Assembly: GCA_019187495.1 (NCBI GenBank)
Contig: JABAQN010000056.1
Location: 1-64,000 of the forward strand
DNA from: Steroidobacteraceae bacterium
GTDB taxonomy: Bacteria; Pseudomonadota; Gammaproteobacteria; Steroidobacterales; Steroidobacteraceae
Direction: 5' to 3'
Length of the DNA: 64,000 nt
The stretch's first letter is position 1. The number at the start of each line of letters is the position of its first letter. A program made the position numbers and the translations under genes. Positions 3,809-58,629 of this stretch are shown one piece after another. A model generated the notes under the pieces. That model was not told the origin of the DNA. It ran no database searches and worked only from the letters and a program-made list of their open reading frames with translations.

Positions 3809-4738
3809 ATGGCGGCCATGGCCACGCTCGCGCTGCACGCCGACGACCTGATCCTGTTCGCACACATTGCCGACGCCGGCAGTCTCACGCGCGCATCGGA
3901 CCGGACCGGCCTGCCCAAGGCGACCCTTTCGCGGCGGCTCACCGCGCTGGAAAACCGCTGCGGCGAGCGGCTTCTGCAGCGCAGTACCCGGCGCATGGTG
4001 CTGACCGCATTCGGCGAGCAGATGCTCGAACACGCCCGCCGTCTGTCCGAGGAAGCAGGCGCGGCGGCCGCGTTTGCGCAACATCGACAGCGCACACCGC
4101 GCGGATCACTGCGTGTGGCGTTGCCACCCGAGTTCGCCGAGCTGTCCCTCGCCCTGGCAGTCACCCGCTTCCATGCCAGGTATCCGGACGTCCGCCTGGA
4201 GCTCGATCTTTCCGCCCGGCGCGTCGACCTCGTGGCCGAGCGCTTCGACCTCGCGGTTCGCGTAGCGACGCGGCTGCCCGACGACGGCACTTTGGTCGCG
4301 CGACGCATCACCACCTCGTCGGGAGGGCTCTACGCCAACCGCAACTACCTGCGCCGATACGGCACACCGCGCACGCCCGACGACCTCATTCGGCATGTCG
4401 GCCTCGCACTCGTGATCGGCGCCGGCGAGCGACAGAAGTGGCTGCTGTCACGCCGCGGCGAGCGCTGGGAGGGCTTGCCGGACCGCGTCCTCGTGGCGAA
4501 CTCCCTCGGCCTGCTGCACGCATTGGGTGTGCGCGGGCTCGGAATTGTCGCCCTGACCGAGCGCTTCACCCGGGGGCTGGCCAACCGCGGCGAACTCGAA
4601 CGCGTGCTGCCGGACTGGAACCTGCCGCCCATTACCCTTTGGTGCGTGACCGCGGGACGTCGTTTGCTGTCGCCGCAAACGCATGCATTCATCGAGATCC
4701 TGCGCGCGACGCTTGCCGATGACACGTCGCGGCGGTAA
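3809..4738 (+). CDS. LysR-family transcriptional regulator
   Basis: A 309-residue regulator. An N-terminal helix-turn-helix reads LTRASDRTGLPKATLSRRL, and the linker helix continues through RSTRRMVLTAFGE. The rest is a substrate-binding-like effector domain containing the usual hinge segment RGSLRVALPPEF. The subtype resembles the CrgA/DsdC-like cluster whose members often control divergent oxidoreductases. The frame opens at 3740, but the ATG at 3809 (or 3818) begins right before the DNA-binding domain. It faces wrbA, so autorepression and control of wrbA are likely; the inducer is unknown. Confidence 0.9.
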   Translation: MAAMATLALHADDLILFAHIADAGSLTRASDRTGLPKATLSRRLTALENRCGERLLQRSTRRMVLTAFGEQMLEHARRLSEEAGAAAAFAQHRQRTPRGSLRVALPPEFAELSLALAVTRFHARYPDVRLELDLSARRVDLVAERFDLAVRVATRLPDDGTLVARRITTSSGGLYANRNYLRRYGTPRTPDDLIRHVGLALVIGAGERQKWLLSRRGERWEGLPDRVLVANSLGLLHALGVRGLGIVALTERFTRGLANRGELERVLPDWNLPPITLWCVTAGRRLLSPQTHAFIEILRATLADDTSRR

Positions 4739-56577: not shown

Positions 56578-58629
56578 ATGGTTGATCGCTCGATCCTGCG
56601 TTGGCTGACGATTGCCTGCCTCATGCTCATGACGGCTTGTGGCGGAGGCGGGTCAGGGTCGAACCCGTCACCGCCTTCGGCTCCGGCTCCGGCCCCCGCT
56701 CCGCTTCCGCCTCCGCCACCGCCTCCTCCACCTGCAGGGCAGCCGAGTTTCATCCAGCTTGAAAGCGACGCCGGTGACTATATTGGCGGCGGGCTGGACT
56801 ACAACTACACGAAGGCCAATGCCGAGATCCTGGTCACGGCGGATCGCGCACTCTTGACCATTCAGATCGCCGGTGATGAATCGTGGTCAGGAGATTTCCA
56901 GCTACCTGACTCCTACAGCGAACTGCAACCAGGCTCCTTCAGCAACCTCGGGGGATACCCGGCCCACGATCCGGCAGTTGGAGGATTGCGCTGGAGTGGC
57001 GAGGGGCGCGGCTGCAGTGGGGTCGAGGGCTGGGTCATCATCGACAGCGTTTCATACGACGGCGCGACCCTGACCGCGATCGATCTGCAATTCGAGCAAC
57101 GTTGCCCGGGCAGGACAGCCGCGCTGCACGGCCGGATACACTGGGACGCGAGTGACACGACGAGCCCGCCGGGCCCGGTCGTGCCGCCACCGGCGGGACT
57201 TTGGAAACCCGCGGCAGGCGTCACGCCGGCGTCCGGCAACTTCATCTACCTCGAAAGCCAGCCGGGCGACTACATCGGTGCCGGCGGGAACTATCTCTAT
57301 ACGTTGACGGATTCCCTGATCACGGTGTTCGAAGCGCGAGGTCGACTGTCGGTTTCGGTCAGCGGCAATGAAGGCTGGAGCGGGGATTTCAGGGGCATGA
57401 TGTGGCTGAGCCGCCTCGAGCCCGGCTATTACGGCGATCTCCGGCGCTTCCCGTTTCACAATCCTGTCAAAGGCGGGCTGAGCTGGTCCGGCGAAGGACG
57501 CGGCTGCAACGCGATCTCCGGATGGTTCGTCGTCGACAACGTGACCTACGATGGCGAATCGCTCGCCACGATCGACCTGCGATTCGAGCAGCATTGCGAA
57601 GGCGGCGGGCCCGCACTGCACGGCGCGATCCACTGGGACGCCACTGACTCGGCCGTCCCGCCCGGTCCGGTCGAGCCACCACCCGCGGGCCTATGGCAGC
57701 CAGCTGCGGGCAATACTCCCGCCACCGGCAACTACGTGTATCTGGAAAGCGAGCCGGGTGACTTCATCGGTCTGGGTGAACACTATCTCTATACGCTCGC
57801 GGACAGCGTGATCTCGGCGAGTTCGACCGGGGCGAGTCTCCGGGTCTCCGTCACCGGGGATGAACGCTGGACAGGCGACTTCCGGGGAATGAACTCGTTG
57901 GGCCGCCTGGAGGTGGGGTACTACGGCGAGCTCCAACGCTATCCGTTCCACAACCCCGCCAAAGGCGGTATGAGCTGGATCGGTGAGGGGCGTGCCTGCA
58001 ATGAGCTGACCGGCTGGTTGGTCGTCGACAACGTCACCTACGATGGATCGACACTGCTCGCATTCGACCTGCGCTTCGAGCAACATTGCGAAGGCGGCGG
58101 GCCGGCACTGCACGGCGCGATCCATTGGGACGTCAATGATGCAACGGTGCCGCCAGGCCCGATCGCGCCTCCGCCGGCGGGATTGTGGCAGCCGGCAGAC
58201 GGCGTGACGCCGGCATCGGGCAATTTCGTTTACCTGGAAAGCCAGCCTGGCGAGTACATCGGCGCCGGCGGCAGCTACCTTTACACACCAATGGACAGCC
58301 AGATCACTGTCAACTCGACCGCGGCATGGCTCAATATCTCGATCAGGGGCGATGAAGACTGGAGCGGCGACTTCCAGGGCATGAATACGTTGAGCCGCCT
58401 GGAGGCAGGCTACTACGGCGACCTAAAGCGCCATCCGTTCCACAACCCCGTCAAAGGCGGGCTGACCTGGGTCGGCAAAGGTCGCGGCTGCAACAGGCTG
58501 GCCGGCTGGTTCGTCGTCGACAGCGTCACCTACGATGGGTCGACGCTGACCGCGATCGACCTGCGCTTCGAACAATACTGCGACGGCAGGGCGCCCGCGC
58601 TGTACGGCGCGATTCACTGGAGTCAATAG
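56578..58629 (+). CDS. Lipoprotein with four ~164-residue tandem repeats
   Basis: A 683-residue lipoprotein. The signal peptide ends in the lipobox LMTAC, followed by GGGGSG and a Pro/Ala hinge (residues 30-55) that would hold the repeats away from the membrane. Four copies of one domain follow. Each begins with a strand such as YLESQPGDYIGAGG, then has WSGDF, LSRLEPGYYGDL, FHNPVKGGLSW and GEGRGC, and ends with LRFEQHCEGG and HGAIHWD. Between repeats lies a Pro linker (PPGPVEPPPAGLW). Conserved cysteines in GRGC and EQHC may form a disulfide. I do not recognise the domain; a surface carbohydrate- or protein-binding role is inference. GGAG precedes the ATG. Confidence 0.85.
   Translation: MVDRSILRWLTIACLMLMTACGGGGSGSNPSPPSAPAPAPAPLPPPPPPPPPAGQPSFIQLESDAGDYIGGGLDYNYTKANAEILVTADRALLTIQIAGDESWSGDFQLPDSYSELQPGSFSNLGGYPAHDPAVGGLRWSGEGRGCSGVEGWVIIDSVSYDGATLTAIDLQFEQRCPGRTAALHGRIHWDASDTTSPPGPVVPPPAGLWKPAAGVTPASGNFIYLESQPGDYIGAGGNYLYTLTDSLITVFEARGRLSVSVSGNEGWSGDFRGMMWLSRLEPGYYGDLRRFPFHNPVKGGLSWSGEGRGCNAISGWFVVDNVTYDGESLATIDLRFEQHCEGGGPALHGAIHWDATDSAVPPGPVEPPPAGLWQPAAGNTPATGNYVYLESEPGDFIGLGEHYLYTLADSVISASSTGASLRVSVTGDERWTGDFRGMNSLGRLEVGYYGELQRYPFHNPAKGGMSWIGEGRACNELTGWLVVDNVTYDGSTLLAFDLRFEQHCEGGGPALHGAIHWDVNDATVPPGPIAPPPAGLWQPADGVTPASGNFVYLESQPGEYIGAGGSYLYTPMDSQITVNSTAAWLNISIRGDEDWSGDFQGMNTLSRLEAGYYGDLKRHPFHNPVKGGLTWVGKGRGCNRLAGWFVVDSVTYDGSTLTAIDLRFEQYCDGRAPALYGAIHWSQ
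56749..58629 (+). repeat. Four tandem coding repeats, exact 492-bp period
   Basis: Equivalent codons (F/Y-x-x-L-E-S) lie at 56749, 57241, 57733 and 58225, three intervals of exactly 492 bp. The fourth unit is cut short at the stop codon and lacks the Pro-rich linker. Repeats 2-4 are most alike; the first has diverged (QLESDAGDYIGGG, EQRCPGR). Confidence 0.9.

Follow-up and report, generated by a model that had tools for sequence, protein, structure and literature searches.

A lipoprotein-like gene lies on the forward strand between positions 56578 and 58629 of the window, by which we mean the whole 64,000-nucleotide stretch of the Steroidobacteraceae contig that was analyzed. The gene begins with an ATG at 56578, has a GGAG sequence ending 10 nt before the ATG, and shows a GC content of 0.63/0.54/0.76 at the three codon positions. 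The promoter scan returned 0 promoter-like sites, and the terminator scan returned one terminator-like site versus 1.7 expected. The predicted protein, which starts with MVDRSILRWLTIACLMLMTAC followed by GGGG in the translation, is organized as follows.

56578..58629, + strand: lipoprotein-like gene, 683 aa, comprising a signal peptide with lipobox, a Pro-rich stretch, four units, and the stop
56638..56640, + strand: predicted lipid-bearing Cys21 (MTA/C-GGGG), a motif read from the translation
56659..56742, + strand: Pro/Ala-rich tether from the anchor to unit 1, read from the translation; a simple repeat of period 6 and period 12
56743..57144, + strand: unit 1, "first" type, 134 aa, from the alignment and the tree
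57013..57015, + strand: Cys91 of unit 1, from the alignment; units 2 to 4 have it in the same place at +492, +984, and +1476
57103..57105, + strand: Cys121 of unit 1, from the alignment; units 2 to 4 have it in the same place at +492, +984, and +1476
57145..57234, + strand: connector 1, 30 aa, D..D...PPGP..PPPAGLW.PA.G.TPA, from the alignment; part of the two-repeat model, with a pLDDT of 84 for its first ten residues and 97 for the others
57235..57636, + strand: unit 2, "later" type, from the alignment and the tree
57637..57726, + strand: connector 2, 30 aa, from the alignment; ordered in the two-repeat model
57727..58128, + strand: unit 3, "later" type, from the alignment and the tree
58129..58218, + strand: connector 3, 30 aa, from the alignment
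58219..58620, + strand: unit 4, "later" type, from the alignment; the single-domain model covers 58219 to 58626

Each unit contains 134 residues, and units 1 to 3 are each followed by a 30-residue connector of the pattern given for connector 1; unit 4 ends in GAIHW-SQ-stop, with just Ser-Gln after the unit. An earlier note on this sequence had called the product a lipoprotein, which is borne out at the level of motifs: a signal peptide, a lipobox (MTA/C), and the Cys by which bacterial lipoproteins are recognized are all present, followed by GGGG, and lipidation is predicted. The four copies start at 56743, 57235, 57727, and 58219, giving spacings of 492, 492, and 492 with no indel, just as the note had described from anchors that sit 6 bases beyond the unit starts; Tandem Repeats Finder reported a period of 492 with 3.1 copies (57119 to 58620, score 1505). 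The note had the last repeat cut at the stop, but unit 4 itself is complete, and what is absent is the connector after it. Its domain of about 135 residues with GRGC and EQHC cysteines has the right size and cysteines (134 aa, both Cys in 4/4 units), whereas the flanking letters vary, with GRAC in unit 3, EQRC in unit 1, and EQYC in unit 4. Repeats 2 to 4 are more alike than repeat 1, as had been noticed, sharing 66 to 70% protein identity among themselves and 47 to 52% with unit 1.

Between-unit identity across the four window units is 59 to 75% of bases and 47 to 70% of residues. Codon position 3 is the most divergent between units and position 2 the least, and a 282-nt family lies in register at 62 to 79% identity among the four copies; the register and the codon-position pattern together indicate that the repeat is not a product of chance. 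NG86 dS values are 0.70 to 0.92 among units 2 to 4, with 46 to 53% of synonymous sites differing, and 1.26 to 1.43 against unit 1. The dN/dS of 0.23 to 0.34 between window units upholds the suggestion in the note that the array is under selection, and the substitutions mark the array as old and constrained by purifying selection. The accompanying proposal of a recent or continually homogenized duplication is not supported, given the base identity of 59 to 75%, the dS of 0.7 to 1.4, and the grouping of units by position rather than by protein. Unit 3 is 70% identical to a Woeseiaceae unit versus 66 to 69% to its own neighbor units. Recent duplication and gene conversion were rejected for the window array on the grounds of divergence, dS, and tree grouping, and the exact 492-bp period has no bearing on recency because it is found in other phyla as well. 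The best unit pair exceeds 80% DNA identity in only 2/61 arrays (the window not counted), and a single clear case of recent duplication was seen among the sampled arrays, between units 3 and 4 (3861 to 4736) of L033 from Pseudoduganella violaceinigra, at 93% DNA identity. As far as the sequences go, recent duplication happens within the family but not in the window array.

No convincing match to the unit was found in Pfam, NCBIfam, PHROGs, or PDB sequences, so the statement that the domain could not be named stands. The searches used 148 units (alignment A3), made up of the four window units and 144 of the 151 obtained from 183 units with a 72% identity filter, seven being dropped. At E values up to 1, these units matched 22 Pfam families (best E, 0.0036) and some NCBIfam families (best E, 0.005), never with more than two units per family; the scattered matches were taken as chance. 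In PHROGs, four families were hit, each by one or two of the 148 units (best E, 0.0033). Against PDB sequences, the best E in the full-length search was 0.12, located in the Pro-rich part, and the profile search gave nothing better than 1.3. The lipocalin/calycin, LpqH, and TbpB families were absent from the Pfam families matched by the 148 units at E values up to 1. The J517_1871 family of lipoproteins (NCBIfam NF045606) is a 133-position family with a weak match to unit 3, covering 26 residues around GRAC (E, 0.011; 15.8 bits versus a cutoff of 60); it was matched by one of 77 full open reading frames (ORFs) (E, 5e-4), was absent from the matches of the 148 single units at E values up to 1, and had no match in the window's own genome, making the likeness only a lead. 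No paper on the unit domain was found in the open PMC literature, a scope that does not take in subscription journals and preprints. By sequence comparison, the unit is a new domain family, uncatalogued in the libraries searched, in an architecture of a known kind.

When 84,980 species genomes were scanned with an eight-unit alignment (A2; four window units and four from a congener), 124 encoding stretches came up, of which 80 were resolved into 77 loci. The 76 loci L021 to L096, from 80 of the 124 stretches, belong to at least nine phyla at NCBI rank, with one locus unassigned: Pseudomonadota (49), Gemmatimonadota (6), Actinomycetota (5), Thermodesulfobacteriota (4), Acidobacteriota (4), Nitrospirota (3), Planctomycetota (2), Chloroflexota (1), and Cyanobacteriota (1). 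A plasmid of Simkania negevensis, on which the gene is annotated as encoding a "hypothetical protein," adds Chlamydiota as a tenth phylum; there were three plasmid records with a unit match, one being 2.1 Mb. The distribution is scattered: the domain was found in 9/196 genomes of the window's order, in 1/274 of its class (searched with the diverse profile A3 at a stricter limit), and in 3/299 of its phylum, its own genome being counted each time. Apparent pseudogenes with stop-interrupted units were seen at G152:C20:27488-27893 and G759:C1:252971-253456.

Among 77 ORFs (L018 and L021 to L096, fragments and contig-cut ORFs included and the window not counted), 16 contain one unit, 31 two, 17 three, 5 four, 7 five, and 1 six. 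Unit-to-unit spacing in 61 arrays (the window not counted) is exactly 164 residues in 49/113 cases and 163 to 165 residues in 72/113, a period common to members of Geobacter, Nitrospirota, and Gemmatimonadota, for example. The exact 492-bp period is thus a trait of the family and not specific to the window. The remaining 41/113 spacings, mostly from more distant or partly different arrays, fall outside 163 to 165 residues, and some relatives thus depart from a fixed pitch. Between species, with one genome per species, unit number was equal in 3/4 protein pairs sharing at least 75% identity in their first and last units and in 13/20 pairs at 65% identity.

Within the window's genus (seven genomes), a full array is present in one other genome (G005) and a fragment is present in G001; the search did not find the array in G002, G003, G004, or G006. 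A whole-protein search of 40 relatives matched 11, the window's own genome included, with the repeats matched in its own genome, G001, and G005 alone; the other matches were to an antisense frame in G004 and to seven N-terminal regions, mostly the signal peptide and Pro-rich stretch. The G004 match (L009; G004:C17, 1498 to 1752) lies opposite an ORF at 148 to 1893, which we read as an MltB-type transglycosylase, and is unusually strong (34% over 85 aa; E, 6e-9 in the small set and 5.5e-7 in the genome); it is probably a chance product of G+C-rich antisense sequence. In G001, five stretches of the window that include the gene's neighbors are 77 to 87% identical but rearranged. The G001 remnant (L019; G001:C4, 4947 to 5417, minus strand) retains roughly 77 residues from the end of a last unit, and a Mutator-family (PF00872) transposase (L008, 1821 to 3041) adjoins it; tblastn of 14 kb around the remnant recovered no further piece of the array. 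In G005, DUF11 domains are fused to the array, whose first unit falls with Sphaerotilaceae proteins on the tree, at a fork with an SH-aLRT of 94 that does not count as well supported. The pattern in these two genomes is compatible with loss, with transfer, or with the two combined.

A phage or mobile origin was considered and rejected. A scan of viral contigs gave 47 pattern matches with no relative by tblastn, and PHROGs matches were sparse. One unverified record from human feces labeled "Bacteriophage sp." (MT837699.1; L123, 591 to 2414) encodes two unit domains. Its other frames, which we take to encode UppS, a permease, a Fur-like regulator, and a zinc-type ABC permease, read as chromosomal, and the record is apparently a fragment of a bacterial chromosome rather than a phage.

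The relationships among units were analyzed with a tree of 77 units from 27 proteins, namely, the window protein and 26 of the 50 closest loci, hand-picked and mostly higher scoring. With one single-unit protein left out of the label tests, the first/later label requires 3 changes on the tree versus 14 to 26 (mean, 21.5) in 300 within-protein shuffles, and this low count marks first and later units as old, separate types. The protein label requires 60 changes versus 59 to 69 (mean, 64.7) in free shuffles. On this tree, units show no overall clustering by protein and position groups extend across species, with within-protein clustering in some lineages (L029 units 2 to 4, L030 units 2 and 3, and L033 units 3 and 4). 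Most forks of the 77-unit tree are weakly supported; in the approximately unbiased (AU) test, a single clade of first units is not rejected (P = 0.17) and the best tree lacks it, so a single origin of the first type is allowed rather than shown. The two types also differ at position 55, where Met occupies 46/50 later units and Pro 23/26 first units of the tree set, and 80/100 and 35/49, respectively, of a larger set of 149 units. Distant units, too, most often have Pro at this position (81%; n = 37), and the first type therefore looks ancestral. From these sequences, the old core may have been a two-unit protein, with later-type units multiplying separately in different lineages.

The AlphaFold2 model of unit 4, made with A3 as a single domain, has a pLDDT of 97.8 and a pTM of 0.91, with ten strands and no helix. 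Foldseek comparison of the unit model with the PDB returned nothing at an E of 0.001 or better (best, 0.034), and viral structures gave no match at that limit. The best VIA-align rows were LpqH (Z, 8.7), designed barrels (7.5), the HtaA C-terminal domain (6.5), the OprF barrel (6.3), TbpB (6.2), a YceI-like protein (6.2), nitrobindin (5.4), and an odorant-binding lipocalin (5.4), where a best Z of 7 to 8 is, according to the tool, typical of models without a clear match and where absence from a list does not exclude likeness. Many of the top VIA-align structures are up-and-down barrels, and the modeled unit is probably an up-and-down beta barrel. LpqH, the mycobacterial 19-kDa protein (PDB 4xin, 4zjm, and 7fds), is likewise a lipoprotein and is the best structural match to the unit model, with 92 of 136 residues aligned at an rmsd of 3.2 Å and 5 to 10% identity; however, its Z of 8.7 is little above the 7 to 8 that is typical without clear kinship. 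Lipocalin and calycin barrels matched the unit model weakly in both Foldseek and VIA.

Of the 148 units, 143 have both Cys91 and Cys121 and 5 have neither; no unit has just one of the two or contains any other Cys. This joint presence and absence points to a Cys91-Cys121 disulfide, which probably forms; judged by the strand limits of the model (94 to 106 and 109 to 121), the two residues would sit together where a single hairpin opens. Both Cys are lost in the third of five units in L054, L055, L059, and L064, where the third unit also has the lowest A2 profile score in the protein. Since this one position accounts for four of the five losses, few of them were independent. The third unit of these proteins reads as a degenerating or repurposed unit fixed in place. 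Conservation in loops is 16/34 at the supposed barrel mouth versus 4/19 elsewhere (Fisher P = 0.08), which is suggestive only and falls short of significance.

The barrel fold brings up the idea that each barrel holds a hydrophobic or metal-containing ligand inside it, the array serving to raise capacity. The VIA matches to the HtaA C-terminal domain, the YceI-like protein, nitrobindin, and the odorant-binding lipocalin would agree with such a carrier, as would His120, which stands beside Cys121 in 86% of 37 distant units. Those rows are weak, though, and mixed with designed and transmembrane barrels; the Foldseek search had no match at an E of 0.001 or better; and His120 is replaced in the window by Arg in unit 1 and Tyr in unit 4. 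We regard a carrier of small ligands as unlikely.

A second model spans connector, unit 2, connector, and unit 3 (window positions 57145 to 58128) and was made from a 92-row alignment (A4; 89 of 90 extracted pairs and three from the window). It has a mean pLDDT of 97.0 and a pTM of 0.89, with block means of 84 for the first ten residues and 96 to 99 elsewhere, including the inner connector. The prediction is thus of an ordered connector and of two barrels that keep one relative position, an arrangement that would account for the conserved period; the 164-residue period would then probably be the pitch of a rigid array. Foldseek found no match to the two-repeat model at an E of 0.001 or better, and in the structure search, where Z reached 7.0, the lobes of TbpB and LbpB were prominent. 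Up to 129 to 131 residues of these lobes align with the model, connector residues partly included, at a low Z of 5.9 to 6.5. TbpB and LbpB are surface lipoproteins with beta-barrel lobes, each lobe being a barrel plus handle and not a row of tandem units.

Residues of the unit may record contact with the connector. Among the first units of the window and 48 loci (n = 49; the incomplete L025 and L065 were excluded), Tyr5 is present in 16/17 with a connector-like Trp upstream and in 0/32 without one, and Tyr65 is present in 15/17 and 0/32, respectively; the 17 include a false positive, L040, whose Trp is inside the signal peptide. Later units have Tyr5 in 92/100, Tyr65 in 81/100, and a narrower connector pattern in 77/100. 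These counts are suggestive of Tyr5 being a docking residue for the connector. The link between connector and Tyr5 requires 5 changes on the best tree, 1 of them forced by well-supported branches, with pairs too few for significance, and it may have had a single origin.

The units occupy the C-terminal end of the protein, with the last unit 10 residues or fewer from the stop in 42/49 proteins and 22 to 47 unidentified residues beyond it in the other 7. N-terminal parts are variable among relatives, as seen in the sequences and in Pfam matches. A Pfam scan of 77 full ORFs (the window, L018, and 75 others; E up to 1e-4, with overlapping families) found K319L-like PKD in 10, DUF4214 in 9, PKD_4 in 6, Big_9 and Cadherin_4 in 4 each, Calx-beta, DUF11, and DUF5018 in 3 each, and Big_5, SLH, and TSP_3 in 1 each. 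Two PEP-CTERM families also matched one ORF each. A lipobox was detected by regular expression in 45/50 of the closest ORFs and 3/27 of the distant ORFs. Units at the free end behind exchangeable N-terminal parts are more likely to be a working head than a stalk.

Periscope Proteins (SasG, Rib, and Sgo_0707) are known stalks that resemble the array. As described in two reports (PMC8201768 and PMC9704523), they have repeats that are highly identical in DNA, vary in number between close strains, and project a separate distal domain, and the linkers of straight rods are typically 5 aa or fewer. Compared with that account, the window protein is alike in being a single envelope-attached chain of tandem folded domains with proline-containing linkers and a likely rigid array; it differs in that its repeats share 59 to 75% of bases, its unit types go with position, its units are themselves distal, and its connectors are 30 aa long. 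An array that gains and loses near-identical copies by recombination and merely sets projection length would agree with the proline-containing connectors, the one to six copies across relatives, and the recent duplication in L033. The rarity of unit pairs above 80% identity (2/61 arrays), the divergence of the window units, their grouping by position across species, and the lack of any known domain beyond the units for a stalk to carry all argue against it, and we consider it highly improbable.

Gene neighborhoods bear on a third alternative, in which the units fasten a periplasmic or outer membrane structural protein to peptidoglycan or partner proteins, with no exposed ligand. Downstream of the gene, between 58663 and 61006, lie genes for a DksA/TraR-type zinc finger protein and an L,D-transpeptidase (YkuD with PG_binding_1), as well as an M15_2/DUF882 protein on the opposite strand. 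The L,D-transpeptidase and M15_2/DUF882 genes would suit a structural protein, as would the lipobox, the one localization signal that was looked for and the one seen. Against this, no neighbor family recurs in relatives: in 52 sequence sets (frames of at least 110 aa in the available flanks), no family besides the array was found in more than three, by which a conserved operon was rejected, and no conserved neighbor hints at a ligand. In our reading of the sequences and family matches, moreover, distant units are joined to parts of the PKD, Calx-beta, cadherin-like, SLH, TSP3, or PEP-CTERM kind. Such parts are typical of exported or exposed proteins. A purely structural role seems to us rather doubtful.

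The reading that we prefer, in which an envelope lipoprotein presents a rigid row of disulfide-stapled barrels as a multivalent, ligand-contacting head, has in our judgment about an even chance of being right. The N-terminal lipid and the Pro-rich tether would anchor the protein in the envelope, and the tether would carry four uncatalogued all-beta domains, probably up-and-down barrels, each stapled by a disulfide. The 30-residue Pro-rich connector would be an ordered part of the repeat and would fix the position of the next barrel; the array would thus be rigid, and its pitch would be what the conserved 164-residue period records. The units at the C terminus, distal to the membrane, would then be the head that contacts ligand. 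For the family as a whole, across ten phyla, we propose more tentatively, as a possibility somewhat against the balance, that the proteins are rigid multivalent receptors of an ancient design in which a first and a later unit, linked through an ordered Pro-rich connector, form the core, the later type has multiplied independently in several lineages, and a conserved ligand site lies at the disulfide-stapled end of each barrel.

The anatomy of the lipoprotein array is well supported; the gene is real, old, and selected, and its exposure, ligand contact, and function are what we infer. A domain of confidently predicted fold that occurs in at least ten phyla and has no convincing match in the libraries searched marks a gap in the domain catalogues, one that could be closed at once since the alignment, models, and motifs exist. 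The array also serves as a caution that an exact, indel-free tandem period is not proof of recent duplication. Finally, position-specialized units that are conserved across phyla would offer a clean system for the study of how arrays grow without homogenization.
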